Part shown: piece by piece, positions 1-40,658 of the stretch | How positions within the stretch are numbered: the stretch's first letter is position 1 | Layout of the letters: each line of letters starts with the position of its first letter | Assembly (NCBI RefSeq): GCF_024300825.1 | Contig: NZ_CP101323.1 | Location: 1,302,001 to 1,366,000 of the forward strand | Reading direction: 5' to 3' | DNA: 64,000 bases | Origin: Natronomonas gomsonensis | Lineage (GTDB): Archaea; Halobacteriota; Halobacteria; Halobacteriales; Haloarculaceae | Notes under the pieces: model-generated | What the model saw: only the letters and a program-made list of their open reading frames with translations | Database searches by the model: none | Told to the model about the DNA's origin: nothing | Position numbers and translations under genes: made by a program

Positions 1-374
1 TCGTGGTTCTCCCGGGCGGTGTGCATGAAGTGGTTGCCGCCGATGCCGTAGCCGTCGCCGTCGCCGCCCGCGGCGATGACTTCGAGGTCGGGATTGGCGA
101 GTTTGGCCGCTCGTGCGATGGGCAACGACCGGCCGTGGATGGTGTGGAAGCCGTAGCTCTCGAAGTAGCTGCTCAGTTTGCCCGAACAGCCGATGCCCGT
201 CGCGAGCAGTATCTCGTCGGGGCTCTTCCCGAGGTCCGACATGGCGCCTTTCAGCGACTTCAGGACGGCGAAGTCACCACAGCCGGGACACCACGTCGCC
301 TGTGGCTCGATGCCGGGCGTGAACTCCTCGCGCTCTACTTCTCGGTTCTCTCCGATTGCGTTGAAGGCACTCAT
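1..374 (-). CDS. korB: 2-oxoacid:ferredoxin oxidoreductase, beta subunit (partial, C-terminus outside window)
   Basis: This is the TPP-binding subunit of a cytosolic 2-oxoacid:ferredoxin oxidoreductase, which oxidatively decarboxylates a 2-oxoacid to an acyl-CoA and reduces ferredoxin. I translated it by hand from the ATG at 372-374. The visible 124 residues hold the family motif TWCPGCGDFAVL near residue 28 and the TPP/Mg motif GGDGDGYGIGGNHF near residue 105. A GGTGA ribosome site overlaps the end of korA, and only two bases separate the two genes, so they are cotranscribed. The gene is cut by the window edge, not broken. The substrate (2-oxoglutarate or pyruvate) is not fixed by the sequence; Kor is favoured by overall resemblance to haloarchaeal KorB. 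Confidence 0.9.
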   Translation of the reverse strand, partial: MSAFNAIGENREVEREEFTPGIEPQATWCPGCGDFAVLKSLKGAMSDLGKSPDEILLATGIGCSGKLSSYFESYGFHTIHGRSLPIARAAKLANPDLEVIAAGGDGDGYGIGGNHFMHTARENH

Positions 375-376
375 GG

Positions 377-2266
377 TCAATCACCTGCCGCGGGGACGAA
401 CTCCGTCGTCGGTGCGGGTTCGTCGCCCTCGATAATCGCTTCGGACCCCTCGACGACCTCGTGTGGCTCGAAGGGGTCACCGTTGTACTTCAGCAGACTG
501 TTCAGTTTCGGCCCGAACCGCCCCAACTCCTTCTGTATCAGTCCACGGAACTGCGCCGACCCGTTCATCTCGACGACCATCGCCTCCTCGACCGACTCGA
601 GGAACTCGGTCATCTCGGCGTCCGGGAACGGCATCATGTCCGAGACGCCCAGCGCGCGCACGTCGTGGCCGGCGTCGTTCAGCCGGTCGACGGCTTCGAG
701 GACGGTCCCCTGTTGGCTGCCGAAGGTGATGATGCCGTAGTCGGCGTCGTCGGGGCCGTGATACGTCTGATGACTCGATTCCTCGGCGTCGAGTTCCTCG
801 CGGATGGATTCGAGTTTCCGCCGACGCCGGCTGAGTTGAGCCACCCGATTTTCGGGGTCTTCGCTGATGTGGCCCTCCGGAGTGTGTTCGTTGCCGGTCG
901 CGAGGAATCGGCCGTCCTTCTGGCCCGGAATCGAGCGGGGCGAGACGCCCTTGTCGTTGTCGGGGTCGTGTTGGAACCGCTGGAACTTCCCGGAGGCGTG
1001 GTGGGCGGCCTCGGCGATTTCCTCCTCGGACAGCGTCGACCCGAGGTCGGGGTTCGGCTCGCGGTCGAAGAACGACTCGTCGACGTTCCGGAGTTCTCCG
1101 GAGAGTTTCTGGTCGTAGAGGACGATAGCCGGCAGTTGGTAGTCGTAGGCGATTCGGAAGGCCGCACGGGTCTGGTCGTAGGCTTCGGCGACGTTGCCGG
1201 GCGCGAAGACAACTCGCGAGGAGTCGCCCTGACTCGTGTAGAGGACGTGTTCGAGGTCGGCCTGTTCGGGTTTCGTCGGCATCCCCGTCGAGGGGCCGGC
1301 CCGCATCGCCTCGACCAACACGACGGGCGTCTCGGTCATTTCGGCGAGGCCGAGCGGTTCCGACATCAGGGCGAAGCCGCCGCCCGAGGAGCCGGACATG
1401 GCCTTCACGCCGGCGTGGGAGGCGCCGAGCGCCAGCGCCGCGGCGGCGATTTCGTCTTCGACCTGCTCGGAGATGCCGCCGATTTCGGGGAGGTGTTGAG
1501 TCATCAGCGTAAACACCTCGGTCCACGGCGTCATGGGGTAGCCGGCGATGAACCGACAGCCCTCGTCGATTGCGCCGTAGGCGATGGCGTTGGACCCGGA
1601 GAGCAACACCTGCTCTTCGTCGTGGCTCCCCTCCGGCATCCGGAGGTCGTGGGAGAACTCCATCTCCTCGACCTCGTCGTACACCATCTGGAGGATGTCG
1701 AGGTTCGCTTGGAGCACCTCGCCGCTCATTCGGTCTTCCATGAGCCCCTGGATGTGCTCCATGTCGTACTCCAGAAGCGCCGCGGTCGCACCGACGCCGG
1801 CGGTGTTGCGCATCACTTCCCGACCGTGTTCGCGTGCGATGGCCCGGAGGTCCATCGGGTAAACGTGCCAGCCGTTCTCCTCGACGCGTTGCTCGAAGTC
1901 GGGCACGTCGTCGATGTCGACGAGTCCTTCGTCGTAGACGATGACGCCACCTTCGCGGAGTTCGTCGAGGTTCTCGGCGAGCGGTTTCACCTCCTCGTTG
2001 CCGTAGTAAGCGTCTTCCTGTGGGTTGCGGGCGAAGGAGTCACCCAGCGCCAACAGGAAGTTGTAGCCGTCCCCGCGGGAGCGTACCGGTTCGGGACCGG
2101 CCCGGATTTCGACGTACGTGTGGCCGCCGCGGATGCGCGACGGATAGTGTCGATGGGTGAATACGTCCAGTCCCGACCGCATCAGCGCCTTCGCGAAGTT
2201 CTGGCTCGTCGAGTCGATTCCGTCGCCGGAACCTCCCGCGATTCGCCAGACGAGTTCCTGTGTCAT
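377..2266 (-). CDS. korA: 2-oxoacid:ferredoxin oxidoreductase, fused gamma-alpha subunit
   Basis: About 629 residues, the usual length for the haloarchaeal subunit that fuses the gamma domain (first ~190 residues, starting WRIAGGSGDGIDSTSQ) to the alpha domain (from about residue 225, with GYPMTPWTEVF) and the transketolase-like C-terminal domain. With KorB it forms the enzyme that uses ferredoxin instead of NAD for 2-oxoacid oxidation. The start at 2266 is chosen because GGTGAT, a full match to the 16S 3' end, lies 4 bases before it; an in-frame ATG at 2284 would add six residues. Upstream, a 14-bp palindrome lies about 100 bases from the start. Pyruvate is a possible alternative substrate. 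Confidence 0.9.
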   Translation of the reverse strand: MTQELVWRIAGGSGDGIDSTSQNFAKALMRSGLDVFTHRHYPSRIRGGHTYVEIRAGPEPVRSRGDGYNFLLALGDSFARNPQEDAYYGNEEVKPLAENLDELREGGVIVYDEGLVDIDDVPDFEQRVEENGWHVYPMDLRAIAREHGREVMRNTAGVGATAALLEYDMEHIQGLMEDRMSGEVLQANLDILQMVYDEVEEMEFSHDLRMPEGSHDEEQVLLSGSNAIAYGAIDEGCRFIAGYPMTPWTEVFTLMTQHLPEIGGISEQVEDEIAAAALALGASHAGVKAMSGSSGGGFALMSEPLGLAEMTETPVVLVEAMRAGPSTGMPTKPEQADLEHVLYTSQGDSSRVVFAPGNVAEAYDQTRAAFRIAYDYQLPAIVLYDQKLSGELRNVDESFFDREPNPDLGSTLSEEEIAEAAHHASGKFQRFQHDPDNDKGVSPRSIPGQKDGRFLATGNEHTPEGHISEDPENRVAQLSRRRRKLESIREELDAEESSHQTYHGPDDADYGIITFGSQQGTVLEAVDRLNDAGHDVRALGVSDMMPFPDAEMTEFLESVEEAMVVEMNGSAQFRGLIQKELGRFGPKLNSLLKYNGDPFEPHEVVEGSEAIIEGDEPAPTTEFVPAAGD

Positions 2267-2362
2267 ATCTATCACCGCGCCCACGTCGGGCGCCTTACTC
2301 GGAGTTGGTCGGCCGCGGACTAAAGCGTTTGCTACGTATTAGCATGGATTAATAATGATAAA

Positions 2363-2376
2363 GGTGTTTAAACACC
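2363..2376. promoter_or_regulatory. Perfect 14-bp palindrome between korA and the DICT gene
   Basis: The sequence GGTGTTTAAACACC is a perfect palindrome in the short AT-rich gap between two divergent genes, next to ATTAATAATGATAAA. It could be an operator for korAB or for the DICT-domain gene, or simply a symmetric TATA-containing promoter. No regulator gene sits beside it. Confidence 0.4.
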
Positions 2377-2494
2377 GCCTGAGTGGTTGGGTTTTGGCCG
2401 GTCCGTCGTGCTCGAGAGGAGGCCGAATGCGGGCCGGCCGTGACGACGCGACCACAGGCTTATTACTCGGAATTGCGTGGTATCCCTAGAGCGA

Positions 2495-3217
2495 ATGTCT
2501 CTCACCGAGCTTATTACGGGGGTCGAAGATCACGAAAAGCGGCTCACGGTGTACAACGCACCCGATAACGCCGCTTCATCCCTCCGAGAGCAGTTCCGAG
2601 ACCGGAACCTCTCGGTGTCAGCCGAGCGGACGCCCAGCGGCAAGCCGGCCTCGTTCGTCGTTCTCTCGGAGGACGACACGTTCGTTACGGCTACGAACCT
2701 CGAGACGGTTCTGGACCCGGACGACAGCGAAACCGACCCGGGGTTCGATGGGGAGGCGTACCGTCCCATCCTCGACCACCTCGATGAGACGATGTTCACC
2801 TCCTACGACATCGAGCAGATGGTCGCCGCCTCCCGGGAAATCGAGGACCGCGCGTGGCGCGTCGGGAAAGGGACGCTTCACTCGGGATTCCAACAGCTCT
2901 CCATCCTCGAAGACCAGATGGACATCTACGAGCAACTCGCAGAGAAGGGGAGCCTCGACGTCCACGCCTACGGCGCTCCGGACACCGACGTGCCGGAACA
3001 CGACACCGACCTCACGATTCACGTCGAGCGTGCCGAGGAAATCGAGCGGTCGTGGTTCGTCGCCTACGACGGCGCCGGCGTCGATGTCAACAAGTGTGCG
3101 CTGCTCGCCGAGGAGCGGGAACCGCGTGCGTTCTATGGCTTCTGGACCTACGACCCCGACACGGTCGATTGGATTATCGACCACCTCGAATCGACGTACG
3201 GCCTCGTCGAACAGTAG
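2495..3217 (+). CDS. DICT sensory domain protein
   Basis: A 240-residue soluble protein that resembles the haloarchaeal DICT-domain proteins (a sensory domain found with diguanylate cyclases and two-component systems). It has the family features MSLTELITGVEDHEKRL at the start, a long middle region with MFTSYDIEQMVAASREIEDRAW, and the C-terminal PRAFYGFWTYDPDTVDWI. There is no DNA-binding or kinase domain, so its partner is unknown. I start it at ATG 2495; an ATG at 2477 would add six residues with no better ribosome site. The next gene starts after a 150-base gap that holds an operator-like palindrome, so this gene is probably a separate unit. The role is inferred from the domain only. Confidence 0.75.
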   Translation: MSLTELITGVEDHEKRLTVYNAPDNAASSLREQFRDRNLSVSAERTPSGKPASFVVLSEDDTFVTATNLETVLDPDDSETDPGFDGEAYRPILDHLDETMFTSYDIEQMVAASREIEDRAWRVGKGTLHSGFQQLSILEDQMDIYEQLAEKGSLDVHAYGAPDTDVPEHDTDLTIHVERAEEIERSWFVAYDGAGVDVNKCALLAEEREPRAFYGFWTYDPDTVDWIIDHLESTYGLVEQ

Positions 3218-3340
3218 ACCCCCAGCGGACTCGGTGAGACGGACCGACAGACGTTCCGGAGATAGCAGCCAGTAGATGGCCATGCCCCACGAACCAGTCG
3301 AAATCTTCCCGTCTGACCCGGAGGACACCCGCCAGTCGAT

Positions 3341-3366
3341 AATTACCTACCGAACGGTAGGTAATT
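3341..3366. promoter_or_regulatory. 26-bp operator-like palindrome before the COG1361/RND operon
   Basis: AATTACCTACCG and its exact reverse complement CGGTAGGTAATT are separated by AA. The core ACCGAACGGT resembles operators of TetR/AcrR repressors. The left arm overlaps a TATA-like TAATTA at 3340-3345, so a bound protein would block transcription of the two following genes. Established context: related COG1361/RND pairs in haloarchaea often sit beside a TetR gene, but none is adjacent here. It ends two bases before a possible ATG at 3368. Confidence 0.65.
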
Positions 3367-3541
3367 CATGAGCCGAATCCGTCGTGGAGACGGCGGCGAC
3401 AGAAACCGGCAGGAACCGGTGCCGAAGGGGGGAGGAAGCCCCAACGAGCATCGACATGGAGAAGCGTCCGACGCCGACGCTCGGACAGTCTTCTCCCTCG
3501 ATGGACGGGTAACTAAGTGGACGGCGGGACTGTATCGACGC

Positions 3542-5509
3542 ATGTCCCCACCGGAAGCGTCTCGCATTGCCGCCGTCGTTCTCTCGATTGCCCTTTTTGC
3601 TTCGGTTTTCGCGCCGCTTTTCGCCGCACCGGCCGCCGCCAACGTCACTGGCGAACCCAATATTTCGCTCACCGCCGGAGACAACCGCCTCTCTGCCGGT
3701 GAGACGACGCAACTGCAGGTGAGCGTCATCAACCGCGGCGAGATACAGTCGGGAAGCAACAATCCGCAGAGAGAACAGCGCGCCACGACGGCCCGTGGGC
3801 TGACCATCGAACCCCTCGATAAAGGACCGATTACGGTTCGTTCCGGAGAAGTCGCCGTCGGGGCCGTCCAAGACGGCGCTGCGGTACCAGTGGGAGTTCA
3901 ACTCACCGTCGCCGAGAACGCCGACCCCGGAACGTACGAGATTCCGGTCCGTGTTCGATACAAGTACTCTGAGTTCGTCGGAGAGCGCGGACAGAACTCC
4001 CAGCGCGACGAGACGGAGAACGTTCGCCGCACCGTCAAGGTTGTCGTCGACGAGGAGGCCGACATCGAGATTCGAGACGTGAGCGCCCCCGCCCCGGGCG
4101 ACACCGGGGCCGTCGAACTCGAATTGACGAACGCCGGCGAGGCGGCGGCCAACGACGCGGTCGTGGGCCTCGAATCGCTCACCGAGGACCTTCAGTTGGG
4201 CACCTCGGGGTCGAGTGAGGCCTACGTCGACCGCTGGGAGCCCGGTGAGAACCGAACCGTCACGCTGTCGGGCAGTGTCACCGACGGCGCCGGAATCCGG
4301 GCGTTGCCGGCGTCGCTGTCGATCGAGTACACCGACGACGACGACGTGCCGTTCACGAGCCGTTCGACGGTCGTCATCACGCCAGACACCGGTGGCGTAC
4401 TGGCCGTCGCGGAGGTCGATTCGACAGCCGGCCCCGGCGAACAGGGCGAAATCGGTATCACGCTCGAACACACCGGTGGGGAGTCCCTCGAGGACGTGAC
4501 CGTCGACCTCACCTCCCGGGAGGCCGGACTCACCTTCGGCGCCGCGAGCGGCTCGGCCAGCGCCTACCTCGGCAGCATCGCACCGGGGGAACAGCGCACC
4601 GTGACAGTCGGCGGGCAGTTCGCCGAAAACGCACGCACCCGAGGGTACGCAGTCGACATGGCCATCGGCTACGACACCGACGAGACGACCGGTGCGACCC
4701 AGCGTAACACCGTCGGTGTCGTCCCCGACGACGACCAGACGTTCACCTTCGAGAACGTCGACTCTTCGCTCCGGGTCTCACAGGACGGGACGCTCCGCGG
4801 GACGTTCACCAACGTGGGCCCCAACGCGGTCGAGAACGTCGTCGTGACCCTTGACCCGCCGAACCGGAACGTCGAAGTGCTCGAACGCGAGGTCGCGTTG
4901 GGTGACCTCGATGCAGGCGAATCCGTCGAGGTTGCCTTCGACGTGGAGGTCGCGAGCGCGGCCCGCTCGGGACCACGGCGGTTCTCGCTGCGGACGAACT
5001 ACGAGACGCTCGACGACGACGAACGGCAGGCCGACCCGATTCAGTTCCGTCAGTCCATCGACCCGCGCCGCGACGTCTTCGGCGTCGAGGCCCAGAACAC
5101 GAACCTCTCTGCGGGCGGAGAGAACCGAATCGTCCTCGCAGTGACGAACCAGCGGAACGAGACGGTCACCGACGTGTCGGCGAAGTTGTTCGCCTCCTCG
5201 CCGCTGTCGACGAGCGACGACGAAGCGTTCATCGCCGAACTCGAACCCGGTGAAACGGTGGAGGTGCCGTTCCGCGTGTCGGCGTCCGGGTCGGCGATGC
5301 AGAAGGACTACCCCGTCTCCGTCGACTTCCAGTACGTCGATGCCGCTGGTGAGACGCGGCTCTCGGAGAGCTATCGCGTGCCGGTCTCGGTGCAGGAGTC
5401 CAGCGGCGGGCTGTTCGGGTCGGTTGCCCCCACGAGCGCACTCGGATTCGCCCCGCTGTTGCTCGTCCCGCTCGCACCGCTGGCACTGCGGCTCCGTCGG
5501 CGGCGATAG
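3542..5509 (+). CDS. Secreted COG1361-type S-layer-like protein of an RND export operon
   Basis: About 655 residues. From the ATG at 3542 there is a clear Sec signal peptide (hydrophobic stretch IAAVVLSIALFASVFAPLFA, cleaved after APAAA), then several repeated beta-sandwich modules typical of COG1361/CARDB-like proteins (recurring LSAGETT, EPGENRTVTLSG, PGEQRTVTVGG), and a C-terminal hydrophobic anchor followed by RLRRRR. It is therefore an extracellular protein tethered to the membrane. The reading frame is open back to an ATG at 3368, directly behind the palindrome and TATA element; using that start would bury the signal peptide, so 3542 with a leader of about 175 bases is preferred. The stop abuts the start of the permease gene, so the two probably act together as exporter and periplasm-side partner. 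Confidence 0.8.
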   Translation: MSPPEASRIAAVVLSIALFASVFAPLFAAPAAANVTGEPNISLTAGDNRLSAGETTQLQVSVINRGEIQSGSNNPQREQRATTARGLTIEPLDKGPITVRSGEVAVGAVQDGAAVPVGVQLTVAENADPGTYEIPVRVRYKYSEFVGERGQNSQRDETENVRRTVKVVVDEEADIEIRDVSAPAPGDTGAVELELTNAGEAAANDAVVGLESLTEDLQLGTSGSSEAYVDRWEPGENRTVTLSGSVTDGAGIRALPASLSIEYTDDDDVPFTSRSTVVITPDTGGVLAVAEVDSTAGPGEQGEIGITLEHTGGESLEDVTVDLTSREAGLTFGAASGSASAYLGSIAPGEQRTVTVGGQFAENARTRGYAVDMAIGYDTDETTGATQRNTVGVVPDDDQTFTFENVDSSLRVSQDGTLRGTFTNVGPNAVENVVVTLDPPNRNVEVLEREVALGDLDAGESVEVAFDVEVASAARSGPRRFSLRTNYETLDDDERQADPIQFRQSIDPRRDVFGVEAQNTNLSAGGENRIVLAVTNQRNETVTDVSAKLFASSPLSTSDDEAFIAELEPGETVEVPFRVSASGSAMQKDYPVSVDFQYVDAAGETRLSESYRVPVSVQESSGGLFGSVAPTSALGFAPLLLVPLAPLALRLRRRR

Positions 5510-7975
5510 ATGGCGGTCGACTATCAGCCGTACATCGACCGGCTTGACCACTACATCACCCAGCGCCCGGGAACCGTCATCCTCGCGTTCCTGCTGGTCA
5601 CGGGGCTGTTCGTGGTCGGCCTCGGTGGCGTTTCGACGAGCGCCGGCACCCAACAGTTCGCCGAGAACACGCCGGCACAGGAAGCGTTCGACGAGGTCAA
5701 CCAGAAGTTCTCGCCGGCGTTCGGCGCCGACAGCGGCAGCACCCAACTGATACAGGACAGCGAAAACGTCCTCTCGCGGGACGCGATGCTCCGGATGCTG
5801 GAGGTCCAAGAGCAGATGGCCGACCGACCGGGGTTGCGCGTCTCGAGTACCTCAAGCGCCGCCGCAATCGTCGCCCAGCAACTCGACCCGCAAGCGACGA
5901 CGCCCGAACAACAACAGCAGGCCATCGAGGCGGCGACCGACACCGAGATACAGCGTGCGGTGCGACGGGCAGACGAGACGAACACGCGTTTCTCCGGGCT
6001 GTTGTCGAACGACTACAATCGCCAGTCGGCGTCGGCGTCAGCGACTATCGGCGTCGTGAGCCACGACATCCCGGCGGGTCTCTCCAGCAGCGCGGGACAG
6101 GGCGGCTCCAGTCCGTTGACGCCGATTCAGCAGGAGGCTCGAACTATCGCGAATTCGGTCGGGAGCGACATCACGGTCTTCGGTGCCGGCATCACCGCCG
6201 CGGAGTTCGGTGCCGTCATCGGTGATACCCTCGCGCTCGTCATCCCGGCGGCGGTGTTGCTCATCACGCTGTTCCTGTTCGTCTCCTACCGTGACCTCGC
6301 GGACCTACTGTTGGGCGTGGTCTCGCTGCTCATCGCCTTGGTTTGGACGTTCGGGTTCATGGGGTTGGTCGGCATCCCCTTCAGCCAGATGCTCATTTCG
6401 GTTCCGCCGCTGCTGTTGGCGGTCGGTATCGACTTCGGTATCCACGCAGTGAACCGGTATCGCGAAGAGCAAGTCAAAGGATTCGGCATCGTCGAGTCGA
6501 TGTCGACGACGACCGACCAGGTGTTGGTCGCCTTCTTCATCGTGACGGGGACGACCGTCATCGGGTTTGCGGCGAACCTCACGAGTAGTCTTCCGCCGAT
6601 ACGCGAGTTCGGGATCGTCGCCGCCGTTGGCATCGTGTTCACCTTCTTGGTGTTCGGGATATTCCTGCCGGCGGCGAAGGTAAAACTCGACCACGCTCGA
6701 CAGAAGTACCCGATTCCGACGTTCGCCACCACGCCGCTCGGGTCGGAGGGGTCGATACTCGGCGGTTTCCAGACGGCCGGCGTCAAAGTCGCCCGAATCG
6801 CACCGATTGCGTTCGTCGTCGTCCTGTTGCTCGTCAGCGGCGTGGCCGCCGGCTACGCAACCGGCATCAGTACCACCTTCGAGGACGAGGACTTCCTCCC
6901 ACCGGAGGACTCACCGGGGTACTACGACTACGTGCCAGAACCCCTCGCACCGGGCGAGTACACCGTGACGGCGACGATTAACTTCTTAGAGGAGAATTTC
7001 GAATCCGGGCAAAGCGACACGGTGACGGTGTACGTCGAAGGACCAATGGAACAGCCAGCGGCGCTGGAATCGATGCGCCGTGCCGGCGAGGACCCACCCG
7101 ATGCCTTCATTCGAGACGGCCGGTACGCCTCAGAGACGAGCATCATCACCGTCATCGACAGCCACGCCGAGCGCGACCCCGAGTTCCGGCGCCTCGTCGA
7201 CCGCAACGACATCGACGACGACGGGATTCCCGACCAAAACCTCGGTGACGTCTACGACTACCTGTATGACTCCCCCGCAAGCGGACAGGCCGCCCAGTAC
7301 ATGACCGAAGACCGCCGGAGTGCCCGAATCGTCTACTCGGTGGAATCCGACGCCACCCAACAGGAGATTACGGACGACGCCCGGGACATCGCCGACCGCC
7401 AGCGCTTCGATGCGACGGCGACCGGCAACACCGTCGTCTTCCAAGCCGTCTCCGACATCATTCTCCAGTCGGCCGTCGTGAGCCTCGCCGTCGCCCTCGG
7501 TGGAACCGCCGTCTTCCTCGTGTTCATCTACTGGCTGTTGCTCGGGCGGGCCTCACTGGGGTTGGCGAACATCACACCCATCGTCGTGACCGTCGCGATG
7601 GTCGCCGGGTCGATGCGACTGTTCGGCCTGTCGTTCAACGCCTTCACCGCGACCATTCTCGCTATCACGATAGGTCTCGGCATCGACTACTCGGTCCACA
7701 TCGTCCACCGCTTCGCCGACGAGTACGAGGAACTCGACCGCGGCGTCTACGAGGCACTCGAAAAGACCGTCCGCGGCACCGGCGGAGCACTGACCGGAAG
7801 CATGCTCACGACGGTGTTCGGCATCGGCGTGCTGGTGTTGTCTATCTTCCCCGCCATCGGCCAGTTCGGCATCCTCACCGGGATGTCGGTGTTCTACTCG
7901 TATCTCGCCTCGCTGTTCGTGTTGCCGTCGGTGCTCGTCATCTGGGCGCGGGTGTTCGACGACGCCTCGACGTGA
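5510..7975 (+). CDS. RND superfamily (MMPL/SSD-type) permease
   Basis: An 821-residue membrane protein with the RND layout: one membrane segment near residue 20, a large outer domain, a bundle of five segments, then the same pattern again. Both halves keep the proton-relay aspartate, in LLAVGIDFGIHAVNRY (about residue 300) and TIGLGIDYSVHIVHRF (about residue 720). Transporters of this class use the proton gradient to export lipids or other hydrophobic compounds; the substrate here is unknown. The ATG follows the stop of the COG1361 gene with no gap, so the genes form an operon under the palindromic operator. Confidence 0.9.
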   Translation: MAVDYQPYIDRLDHYITQRPGTVILAFLLVTGLFVVGLGGVSTSAGTQQFAENTPAQEAFDEVNQKFSPAFGADSGSTQLIQDSENVLSRDAMLRMLEVQEQMADRPGLRVSSTSSAAAIVAQQLDPQATTPEQQQQAIEAATDTEIQRAVRRADETNTRFSGLLSNDYNRQSASASATIGVVSHDIPAGLSSSAGQGGSSPLTPIQQEARTIANSVGSDITVFGAGITAAEFGAVIGDTLALVIPAAVLLITLFLFVSYRDLADLLLGVVSLLIALVWTFGFMGLVGIPFSQMLISVPPLLLAVGIDFGIHAVNRYREEQVKGFGIVESMSTTTDQVLVAFFIVTGTTVIGFAANLTSSLPPIREFGIVAAVGIVFTFLVFGIFLPAAKVKLDHARQKYPIPTFATTPLGSEGSILGGFQTAGVKVARIAPIAFVVVLLLVSGVAAGYATGISTTFEDEDFLPPEDSPGYYDYVPEPLAPGEYTVTATINFLEENFESGQSDTVTVYVEGPMEQPAALESMRRAGEDPPDAFIRDGRYASETSIITVIDSHAERDPEFRRLVDRNDIDDDGIPDQNLGDVYDYLYDSPASGQAAQYMTEDRRSARIVYSVESDATQQEITDDARDIADRQRFDATATGNTVVFQAVSDIILQSAVVSLAVALGGTAVFLVFIYWLLLGRASLGLANITPIVVTVAMVAGSMRLFGLSFNAFTATILAITIGLGIDYSVHIVHRFADEYEELDRGVYEALEKTVRGTGGALTGSMLTTVFGIGVLVLSIFPAIGQFGILTGMSVFYSYLASLFVLPSVLVIWARVFDDAST

Positions 7976-8014
7976 GGAAAACACTTTGCGTGGCGTCTCC
8001 GTAGGAGAGAACAC

Positions 8015-8560
8015 GTGGCATCTATCTCCGAGTGGCTCGCCGGCGAAGCCAACAGCTACATCCTGTATGCGCCACCAATGGGCGGCGTGTCGGCGTTCAG
8101 CAACGCCGTCGGCGACGCCAGAGCCGGCGAGACGCTTCTCGTCTCGGCGACGCACGGCGAGAACGCGACGCCGACCGAGGCGACGGCGTCGCTGTCGTCG
8201 GTGCTCTACTGTACGCCGACGAGCGACGAGGTGAGCACGCCGGGAGACCTGACTGGGATTTCGATGCCCGTCTCGGAGTTTCTGAAGCGTTCGTCGTCTC
8301 CGGCCGTCTTCATCGACTCCGTGACGACGCTTCTGTACTACGCCGAGGACGCCTCCGTATTCCGGTTTCTCAGCGTGCTGACGGCCCACATCCGACGCAA
8401 CGACGGCCTCGGCGTGTTCGCGATGACGCCCGACGCCCACCACGAACAGACCGTCCGAACGTTCGAACAGTTGTTCGACGGCCGCATCGAACTCGACGCC
8501 GACGGCGAGCGTGCCCGGGTCGACGCACCGGGCGCCCCCGAGGGCTGGCAGCCGCGCTAG
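8015..8560 (+). CDS. DUF7504-like degenerate RecA/KaiC-fold protein
   Basis: 181 residues starting at GTG 8015 with AGGAG nine bases upstream. It resembles a haloarchaeal family (DUF7504 from memory) that keeps the RecA/KaiC fold but has lost the phosphate-binding loop: YAPPMGGVSAFSNAVG sits where GxxGxGKT is expected, with no lysine. PAVFIDSVTTLLYY matches the Walker B strand of KaiC-like proteins (VFDSVS). It probably does not hydrolyse ATP. It follows the permease by 39 bases. A paralogue lies at 58160-58801. Its stop overlaps the stop of the convergent lactonase-like gene in the tetramer CTAG. Confidence 0.7.
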   Translation: MASISEWLAGEANSYILYAPPMGGVSAFSNAVGDARAGETLLVSATHGENATPTEATASLSSVLYCTPTSDEVSTPGDLTGISMPVSEFLKRSSSPAVFIDSVTTLLYYAEDASVFRFLSVLTAHIRRNDGLGVFAMTPDAHHEQTVRTFEQLFDGRIELDADGERARVDAPGAPEGWQPR

Positions 8561-9348
8561 AGCCCGTCGCGAATCCGCTCGAACTGCTCGGGGTCGTGGC
8601 CGTAGATGACGCGGGCATCGTAGCGCCGTTCGAGGTCCTTCAGGAACTGCCGGCTCTCCTCGTAGGCCCGCGAATCGTACAGCAGACTGGCGCCCATCGA
8701 ACGGCTCTCCTCGTAGTTCGGCGCGAGGAACGCCTCGTCACCGGCGACGAGGACGTTTTCATCCCCCTCCCGTTCGAACAGCGCACCGAGCAGTCCAGGC
8801 GTGTGGCCCGGCAGGTGCAGTAACTCGACGCCGTCGAAGAGTTGGTATCGTGGCTGGTCGACGATTTGCCAGTTCAACTCGTGGTCGAAATCGGAGGCGA
8901 GGTAGGCGTCGCCGCCAGCCGTCGACTTTGCGGACAGGTAGGCGTGTTCGAGTTCCCGACGGTGGACGTAGATTGGCACGTCCGTCCCGTCGAAGTGATA
9001 CAGGCCGCCGGCGTGGTCGAGATGCAGGTGTGACTGAATCACACAGTCGATGTCCTCGACGGAGTACCCGACATCGGCGAGAGCGGTTTCGAGGTCGCGG
9101 TCAGCGGCGTCGGGGTGGGCGAAGGCCTCATACAGCGGGGCGGGCCAGTAGCCGTCGGCCGCTTCGGGGTGTGAACCGGTATCCCACAGTATCGTCGCCT
9201 CGGGATGGTCGACGACGAGGTTCCAGACGGCGAACTCGGTGTACTGGAGGTCGGGGTTGCGGTCGCTGTGTACTGCGGCGACTTCGCCGTCCAAAGCGAA
9301 GTTCAAATCGGCGTGGATACGGCCACGGTCGAGGACGTGAATGTCCAT
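8557..9348 (-). CDS. Metallo-beta-lactamase hydrolase, N-acyl-homoserine-lactonase-like
   Basis: 263 residues with the metal-binding motif QSHLHLDHAGG near residue 105, a second histidine in LLHLPGHTPGLLGALF, the bridging aspartate in VLVAGDEAFLAPNYEE, and a final histidine in IYGHDPEQF. The spacing and the opening MDIHVLDRGRIHAD resemble the AttM/AiiA lactonase branch of the superfamily, which opens lactone rings with two zinc ions. The natural substrate in a haloarchaeon is unknown, so quorum quenching should not be assumed. It is convergent with, and shares its stop tetramer with, the previous gene. Confidence 0.8.
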   Translation of the reverse strand: MDIHVLDRGRIHADLNFALDGEVAAVHSDRNPDLQYTEFAVWNLVVDHPEATILWDTGSHPEAADGYWPAPLYEAFAHPDAADRDLETALADVGYSVEDIDCVIQSHLHLDHAGGLYHFDGTDVPIYVHRRELEHAYLSAKSTAGGDAYLASDFDHELNWQIVDQPRYQLFDGVELLHLPGHTPGLLGALFEREGDENVLVAGDEAFLAPNYEESRSMGASLLYDSRAYEESRQFLKDLERRYDARVIYGHDPEQFERIRDGL

Positions 9349-9408
9349 GCCGGTCTTACGTCCGGACCGGCCAAGAGTGTTGTCGCGGCGGTCCGTTCCT
9401 CGGGGCGA

Positions 9409-10563
9409 CTACCACTGGGCCTGTCCGTAGATGAGATTACGCTGAATCTCGTTTGCGCCCTCGTAGATGACGGGAATCCGAACGTCGCGGTACACTCGGG
9501 AAATGCGGTTCTCGACCAACACCGAGCGGCCGCCGTGGAGCTGCATCCCGCGTTCGGCACACATGTTCGCCGTCTCGGTGGATTTCACCTTCGCCTGTGC
9601 GGCCCACAGGCCGGCGTTGTCCTTCTCGGCAACGCGGTCGGCGGCCTGCCAGTTGAGCGTCCGGGCGGCGTTGAACTCCGTCAGCATGTCCGCGAGGATG
9701 TGTTGGACCTTCTGGAACTCGCTGACGTTGCGGTCGAAGGCTTTCCGGCCGTGGACGAAGTCGGCGGTCTCTTCGATGGCCGCCGCGGCCAAGCCGAGGC
9801 CGTGGCCACCGACGACGACGCGGCCGTAGTTGAAGAACTCCGCGAGCATATAGAAGCCCGTTCCCTCGGCGCCGATGACATTCTCCTCGGGAATGCGTGC
9901 GTCGTTGAACTCGATGTGGGCCTGTTTGGAGGCGCGGAACCCCATCTTCTCGGGGATGTGTTCGGCGTCGTAGCCGTCGGTGTCGGTGGGAACGATGAAC
10001 AGCGAGAAGTTGCTGTAGGGGTCGTCCGAATCGTCGCCCGTCCGTGCGTACACCGTCACCCAGTCGGCTTCGACGCCGTTGCCGACCCAGTACTTCTCGC
10101 CGTTCAGTACCCACTCGTCGCCGTCTTTCTCGGCGGTGGTTTCCATGCCCGCGAGGTCCGACCCGGTTTCGGGTTCCGAGACGGCCAACCCCGACAGTTG
10201 GTCGTTCTCGGCGACCGGTCGGAGGTACTGCTCTTTCTGTTCGTCGGTGCCGTACTCTTCGGTGATTTTCGTCCCGAAACTCGCCAACTGTAGCGTCAGG
10301 GCGATACCGGCGTCCGCGCGGTAGAACTCCTCGGCGATGGCGAGAATCTCGTGGACGTCGAAGCCGCGACCGCCGTACTCCTCGCCGATGTCCTGTGCGA
10401 CGAGGCCGGCGTCCATCCCGGCCTCCAGTACCTCCCAGGGGTACTCACCGGTCTCGTAGTAGTCGGCCGCGTTCGGCTCGATGTACTCGGCGGCGAACTC
10501 CCGGGCCTCCTGTTTGACCGCTCGGGCGTGCTCCGGAACGACCGCTTCGTCTAACAGTTCCAT
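9409..10563 (-). CDS. Acyl-CoA dehydrogenase
   Basis: 384 residues, full length for an FAD-dependent acyl-CoA dehydrogenase, which introduces the alpha-beta double bond into acyl-CoA and passes electrons to ETF. The FAD/substrate motif LAVSEPETGSDLAGMET is near residue 150, and the catalytic glutamate lies in VIYEGANEIQRNL near the C-terminus. It lies 88 bases downstream of an acyl-CoA synthetase on the same strand, which suggests joint work in fatty or branched acyl-CoA breakdown. Chain-length preference cannot be read from the sequence. A second paralogue lies at 39516-40658. Confidence 0.92.
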   Translation of the reverse strand: MELLDEAVVPEHARAVKQEAREFAAEYIEPNAADYYETGEYPWEVLEAGMDAGLVAQDIGEEYGGRGFDVHEILAIAEEFYRADAGIALTLQLASFGTKITEEYGTDEQKEQYLRPVAENDQLSGLAVSEPETGSDLAGMETTAEKDGDEWVLNGEKYWVGNGVEADWVTVYARTGDDSDDPYSNFSLFIVPTDTDGYDAEHIPEKMGFRASKQAHIEFNDARIPEENVIGAEGTGFYMLAEFFNYGRVVVGGHGLGLAAAAIEETADFVHGRKAFDRNVSEFQKVQHILADMLTEFNAARTLNWQAADRVAEKDNAGLWAAQAKVKSTETANMCAERGMQLHGGRSVLVENRISRVYRDVRIPVIYEGANEIQRNLIYGQAQW

Positions 10564-39515: not shown

Positions 39516-40658
39516 TCAGTTCAACAGTTCGTTGGCGATGGTGTTGCGCAGGACTTCGCTGGTGCCCTCGTAAATCTCGTTGAGTTTGGCGTCGCGGTAG
39601 AACCGCTCTGCAGGGAAGTCCTTCGTGTAGCCGTAGCCGCCGTGAATCTGGATGCCCTCGTTTGCGACCTCACGGGAAACTTCGGAGGCGTGCAGTTTCG
39701 CCTGGGCGGCCTCCTTGACGAAGTTCTCGCCGCGAATCTTCTTGTCGGCCGCCGAGTGCATCAGCAATCGGGCCGCACGGGTCTGTGTGTCCATGTCGGC
39801 GAGTTTGTGCTGGATGGACTGGAAGTCGGAAATCGGCTGGTCGAACTGTTCGCGGTCCTGGCTGTATTCCAGTGCCGCATCGAGCGCCGCCTGTGCGATG
39901 CCGACAGAGCGGGCAGCGATGGTGATGCGGCCGCCGTTGAGCGTCTTCAGCGCGTGGACGAAACCGCGACCCTCCTCGCCGAGGCGGCGCGATTCGGGGA
40001 TGGTGAGATTGTCGAAGCGCAACTCGGCGGTTGGACAGCCCTTGTCACCGAGTTTGTCCTCGGTGCCCTCGACGATGAAGCCGTCGTCCTCTTCCGGTCG
40101 GACGATGAACGACGAGATACCCTTGTTGCCGGCCTCGGGGTCGGTCTTGGCGAACACCGTGACCGTGTTCGCGACCGAACCGTTGGAAATCCACAGTTTG
40201 CCGCCGTTGATGACGTACTCGTCACCGGCTTTCTCGGCGGTGGTCTCCATGGCCGGCACGTCGCTTCCGGCGCCGGGTTCCGACAGCGCGAACGCGCCGA
40301 TGTCTTCGCCCTCCGCCAGCGGCGTCAGGAACTCCTCCTTCTGGGATTCGTCGCCGAACTCGTAAATCATGTTGCCCGCAAGCGAGATGTGGGCGGCGAC
40401 GATGGTTCCGAGACCGCCGGAGCCGCGCGAAATCTCCTCCAGAGCGGCGGGGTAGGCGTGATAATCGAGGCCCGCACCGCCGTACTCCTCGGGGAACGGC
40501 ATCCCCATCAATCCGAGGTCGGCGAGTTCCTCGACGAGTTCCCACGGGAACTCGTCGTCGTGGTCGATTTCGTCGGCGACGGGGACGACTTCCTCGTCGA
40601 CGAAGTCGGACACCATGTCCGTGACTTGTTTCTGTTCCGCCGTGAAACTGAAGTCCAT
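39516..40658 (-). CDS. Acyl-CoA dehydrogenase (paralogue 2)
   Basis: About 380 residues from ATG 40658 ([20 protein letters not shown]), the standard length. FAD motif [40 protein letters not shown], and the catalytic glutamate in [20 protein letters not shown] identify a short- or branched-chain acyl-CoA dehydrogenase. It lies downstream, on the same strand, of the truncated 3-hydroxyacyl-CoA dehydrogenase, so the two were probably one beta-oxidation unit before the deletion. An ATG at 40682 would add eight residues. Confidence 0.92.

Follow-up and report, generated by a model that had tools for sequence, protein, structure and literature searches.

TetR-type repressors acting on transporters of the MMPL/RND type have a known example in Mycobacterium abscessus where, according to the available part of the article, the TetR protein MAB_4384 acts on a 27-bp palindrome to repress mmpS5/mmpL5, a pump that is derepressed when MAB_4384 is inactivated (PMC5895659). 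Among the haloarchaea, a COG1361-RND gene pair like that of the window (the whole 64,000-nt stretch of DNA analysed here) is found in modules of Haloarcula, Halorientalis and other genera, where it is preceded by a TetR-type gene and the intervening DNA holds palindromes. The TetR gene of these modules is divergent, and most of their palindromes are of the TGAxTGAAyrTTCAxTCA or CGACCGAAtaTTCGTTCG type rather than the ACCTACCG of the window locus. For the comparison of loci, the best 80 of 145 relatives of the RND protein were kept, from 177 candidate stretches; the closest two among these best 80 belong to Natronomonas sp. CBA1123 (L046) and N. gomsonensis YCN60 (L047). Their DICT-TetR-COG1361-RND locus resembles the window in its neighbours, in a 20-bp operator core and in the spacing to the ATG, and differs from it in having a full TetR gene and a BRE-like CAGAA ahead of the TATA-like box. 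No report of a TetR deletion at this locus was found in the open-licence PMC literature, and the accessible part of PMC9895928 contains nothing on the locus. From the evidence given below, the palindrome upstream of the window's COG1361/RND operon very probably served as operator for a dedicated local TetR, whose gene was lost by a deletion of ~633 bp between ATAAT repeats; this may have left the operon unrepressed.

The locus begins with a gene for a DICT-domain protein (2495-3217, plus strand; ATG at 2495 within the longest ORF from 2477; PF10069, E 4e-16), the same upstream neighbour that had been named from the sequence alone; its product is 96% identical to that of both close relatives and 64-76% identical to the others. 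The operon starts with a gene for a COG1361-like NEW3/CARDB protein (3368-5509, plus strand; 85-90% identity to the two relatives), followed by the MMPL/RND transporter gene (5510-7975, plus strand; PF03176, E 2.5e-35; 96% identity to the two relatives). The pump of a TetR-pump module is thus present downstream of the operator, as its PF03176 domain attests, and what is missing is a functional TetR gene next to it: codons 1-20 alone are left. In fact, four genes of the genome score above the PF00440 cut-off and none lies at the locus, in agreement with the sequence-only reading, which had seen no adjoining TetR gene. On the window branch dN/dS is 0.15 for COG1361 and 0.08 for RND, and both genes are still under purifying selection.

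The palindrome at 3341-3366 (no strand assigned) reads AATTACCTACCGAACGGTAGGTAATT, i.e. AATTACCTACCG-AA-CGGTAGGTAATT, and is a perfect 12+2+12 inverted repeat exactly as had been claimed; it ends one base 5' of the ATG at 3368. Its 20-bp core, TACCTACCGAACGGTAGGTA (3344-3363), has the same letters in both close relatives, in which a G replaces an A outside the core and the palindrome is 9+2+9. Relative to the ATG the repeat spans -27 to -2 and overlaps the putative TATA-like element ATAATTA (3339-3345, plus strand), whose centre lies ~26 nt 5' of the ATG and which belongs to a promoter predicted from sequence. Half-sites repeated across a short spacer, a position over the promoter and a TetR gene alongside in the relatives are all features of TetR operators, and the palindrome is accordingly best described as a predicted operator of the TetR type that covers the likely core promoter of the COG1361/RND operon, as the sequence-only reading had proposed.

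Within the window ACCTACCGNNCGGTAGGT has one exact match and no further match when as many as 3 mismatches are allowed, a tolerance at which 25 of 100 shuffles gave one or more matches; the whole 3.65-Mb genome holds one exact match, none with 1-2 mismatches and 22 with 3. The 18-mer is found in 2 of 293 genomes of the order (its own and G259), and G302 has it too. A regulon of exact operator copies is ruled out by the single exact site genome-wide. The scan for other copies that had been suggested earlier has therefore yielded no further exact one, which does not refute the operator, because a dedicated local repressor needs one site. Perfect inverted repeats with arms of at least 12 and loops of 0-4 number two in the window, at 3341 and 40532; the second, CGACGAGTTCCCACGGGAACTCGTCG (40532-40557), is also a 12+2+12 repeat and lies in G+C-rich, coding-looking sequence.

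In both L046 and L047 the space between DICT and COG1361 is occupied by a TetR gene that points the same way as the operon; just 5' of the COG1361 ATG these loci carry the operator core TACCTACCGAACGGTAGGTA. The extra DNA of these relatives encodes a PF00440 TetR of 217 or 218 aa (TetR_N, 9e-13 and 1e-11; TetR_C_6, 3e-12 and 4e-12). When positions 1-9000 of the window are aligned with L047 by blastn, two colinear blocks are obtained, 145-3343 matching 1-3201 and 3339-9000 matching 3830-9515, and L046 gives the same two-block pattern. The blocks meet and overlap at the deletion junction ATAAT (3339-3343, plus strand), a sequence that is present at both deletion ends in L047 (3197-3201 and 3830-3834); since these copies start at 3197 and 3830, the deletion, measured against L047, is 633 bp long. 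The right-hand copy of the repeat in L046 is ATATT instead of ATAAT.

What is left of the TetR gene is a remnant of codons 1-20, MPHEPVEIFPSDPEDTRQSI (3282-3341, plus strand), recognised by its similarity to the L046 TetR (91% at the amino acid level against residues 1-22, 94% at the DNA level over 62 nt). It retains positions that are conserved among 32 TetR homologs, 29 from other genomes and three own: F9 (29/32), P13 (28/32), T16 (27/32), R17 (29/32) and I20 (31/32). After codon 20 the window runs into the operator and then reaches a TGA in overlap with the COG1361 ATG, and the deletion has in this way given birth to a 29-codon open frame (3282-3371, plus strand). This stop (3369-3371) and the next start form an ATGA overlap, by which translational coupling of upstream transcripts could occur. 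Over 61 nt the stump shows one difference from L047 and four from L046, every one of them synonymous, so that the stump appears to have been coding for much of the divergence. In the noncoding stretch 5' of it (64 positions) there are 8 differences from L047 and 6 from L046, a contrast with the stump that by Fisher's test gives p 0.033 for L047 and a non-significant p 0.74 for L046. Judged by dS, L046 and L047 group together with the window outside them, at a window-branch dS of ~0.17-0.22. Only one stump change falls on the window side, against ~10 neutral changes expected in 61 nt by a rough reckoning, and for this reason the deletion is probably recent. Taken together, these comparisons give strong support to a history in which the local TetR was deleted.

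The sequence-only reading had held that the repressor must be encoded elsewhere, an idea that gives way to the deletion of the dedicated repressor in this lineage, with its 20-codon stump left in place. No intact copy of the lost TetR was recovered in the own genome, either by protein search (only the stump and, at 38-42%, three paralogs from among the four PF00440 genes) or by DNA search (the stump and short weaker matches), and on these results a copy relocated in the genome was rejected. Most likely, as far as can be judged from the sequence, the operon is now without its dedicated repressor; control by another TetR, i.e. the MATE-linked one discussed below, is possible. The same genome has two paralogous COG1361/RND operons that keep divergent TetR genes (G000:C1 1-6000 and 1798000-1802500), as well as a third COG1361 paralog at 1840102.

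The course of events can be pictured as follows. A TetR gene would once have stood between DICT and the operator, and its dimer, to judge from the position of the palindrome, would have bound there. In the ancestor this dimer would have kept TBP, TFB and RNA polymerase off a leaderless promoter, until a small molecule, perhaps a substrate of the pump, freed the repressor from its site. Leaderless transcripts make up 72% of the protein-coding transcripts of Haloferax volcanii, as stated in the available part of PMC4983044, where CGAAA is also cited as a proposed haloarchaeal BRE. The deletion would then have taken the TetR gene from codon 21 on and, with it, the promoter sequence as far as the TATA-like box; that box, the operator and the operon would have stayed, as would codons 1-20. 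In the stretch that runs into the operator from upstream, L046 and L047 have the common sequence CAGAACCCATAWTTACC and the window has CGCCAGTCGATAATTACC, from which the BRE-like CAGAA of the relatives is absent; a weaker promoter in the window is possible because this element was lost. With somewhat less certainty, the operon would now be without a dedicated repressor and unrepressed, and transcribed perhaps from the weakened promoter or by DICT transcription that reads through into it.

The present role of the site may nonetheless be a different one. A tentative reading, which is compatible with the deletion history and which we consider possible though somewhat unlikely, is that the TetR encoded at G000:C1:257022-257633 (hereafter the 257-kb TetR) binds the operator in trans, and that the pump and a MATE transporter share this repressor. 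The gene adjoins a MatE gene (L171, G000:C1:256500-259500), and upstream of it lie ACCTACCGAACGTTTAGT (258078-258095) and ACTTACCGAACGTTCAGT (258272-258289), which have the register and centre of the operator; the site at 258078 comes just before the ATG with which the gene upstream of the 257-kb TetR starts. The pattern ACYNANCGNNCGNTNRGT matches three sites of the own genome, namely these two and the operator, a partly circular result since the pattern was derived from them. The genome contains five copies of ACYTACCGAACG: at the operator, at the two sites of the 257-kb TetR and twice inside coding-looking frames. Only one of the half-sites is identical, however: in place of CGGTAGGT the other arms have CGTTYAGT.

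The recognition helix is KAAIYYHYD in the 257-kb TetR as against KASLYYHYD in the lost TetR, and YYHYD appears in no other row of the alignment (29 homologs and two further own TetRs), although the two proteins are only 36-39% identical. The nearest relatives of the 257-kb TetR are found in G227, G209, G204 and G020, at 61-72% identity. That of G020 (61%) follows an MMPL gene, and no operator-like site was seen near it; ACTGACCGAACGTTCAGT or a close variant lies near the relatives in G209 and G204, and G227 shows a weaker site only. The sites of orthologs are ACTGACCG-like, so the match with the operator could be drift. In G259 and G302, which keep the dedicated TetR, the 257-kb TetR was not found (E<=1e-45). 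This distribution is in line with the sharing of a repressor, and yet one genome is one case; furthermore, the deletion looks recent, and an intact operator therefore needs no selection to explain it. It is doubtful, and indeed rather unlikely, that a second TetR, gained with the MATE cluster and reading ACCTACCG, took over the operator in trans and rendered the dedicated TetR dispensable, whose gene could then be lost with the operator still perfect, and that the two efflux systems were in this way merged in one regulon.

As for the specificity of the lost repressor, most of its homologs carry KSLLYHHYD, and 22 of the 29 lie near TGAxTGAA-type or related sites, the other 7 having none by that pattern. 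The full ACCNACCG...CGGTNGGT site was not found in the fetched loci outside the window locus and the loci of the two relatives. The lost TetR thus probably read a site unlike that of most of its kin. The palindrome as a general operator of this TetR group was rejected on account of the 22 of 29 homologs with TGAxTGAA-type or related sites. Across the loci L140-L168, KSLLYHHYD TetRs mostly have TGAxTGAAyrTTCAxTCA just upstream and KSTFYHHYD/KSTFYHHFD TetRs have CGACCGAAtaTTCGTTCG. An apparent recognition-helix code of haloarchaeal TetRs emerges from such sequence pairings.

Returning to the deletion itself, which we hold to be very well founded as a history of this sequence, it may be culture-derived or an assembly artefact, as one strain of the species was compared.

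The surroundings of the operon were surveyed in the same loci. The COG1361-RND pair is present in 54 of the best 80 of 145 loci, the other 26 having no COG1361 partner detected; upstream of the pair a TetR-type gene is found in 28 of the 54, none in 24, and in two the stretch is cut off. The expectation of the sequence-only reading that such operons usually adjoin their own TetR consequently holds for about half of them. A codirectional DICT gene (>50% identity) occurs in 9 of the best 80 of 145 loci, and also in G289 and G303. These 11 DICT loci comprise two with a codirectional TetR (L046 and L047), four with a divergent TetR of another type between DICT and COG1361 (L049, L050, L090 and, in G303, L170) and five without TetR (L048, L051, L052, L066 and G289). 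Repressors seem to have been gained and lost repeatedly between DICT and COG1361, with DICT constant, and the DICT gene appears as an old neighbour of the operon, with or without TetR.

The suggestion that the DICT protein is linked to the control of the operon gains no support from this survey, DICT being upstream regardless of TetR. The DICT protein as the replaced regulator was rejected because it is present both with and without TetR. It is also quite improbable that the operon is now controlled by DICT, be it by read-through or through the protein itself, with the palindrome as a mere relic: the codirectional DICT gene upstream in these loci and the end of the stump frame, ATGA on the COG1361 start, would suit such control, but no DNA-binding domain was detected in the DICT protein, and DICT does not track the operator because its adjacency is equal with and without TetR. 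Finally, that a TetR was gained by insertion at ATAAT in the CBA1123/gomsonensis ancestor, with the window as the original state, is extremely improbable: the window is indeed the outgroup by dS, and five loci (those just listed without TetR) have DICT followed directly by COG1361, but for that very reason tree shape alone gives no direction, which rests on the stump, and the window holds the start and first 20 codons of TetR with family-conserved residues and synonymous differences only, traces that an insertion in the relatives would not account for, while an operator without a repressor would lack an explanation.

With the deletion of the local TetR as the preferred reading, the orphan operator is explained as a traceable event, in which a microhomology deletion took the repressor and spared the operator. 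The intact sister species make the locus a natural experiment on the loss or rewiring of the control of an archaeal pump, and the 257-kb TetR is a concrete case for asking whether another repressor can inherit an operator. A caution also follows, namely that relatives should be checked before a distant regulator is deduced from an orphan palindrome. MAB_4384, in the available part of its description, is encoded beside an MMPL-family pump that, like the pump of the window, has a long palindrome upstream (two degenerate 13-nt arms). From the same source, wild-type M. abscessus has the MAB_4384 gene, in divergent orientation, whereas the window's TetR is deleted; the host of the window is archaeal and uses a TATA/TFB promoter, and its locus is known from sequence alone. 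Repressor loss with derepression of the pump is thus already known from MAB_4384, and the window is a clear new archaeal case.
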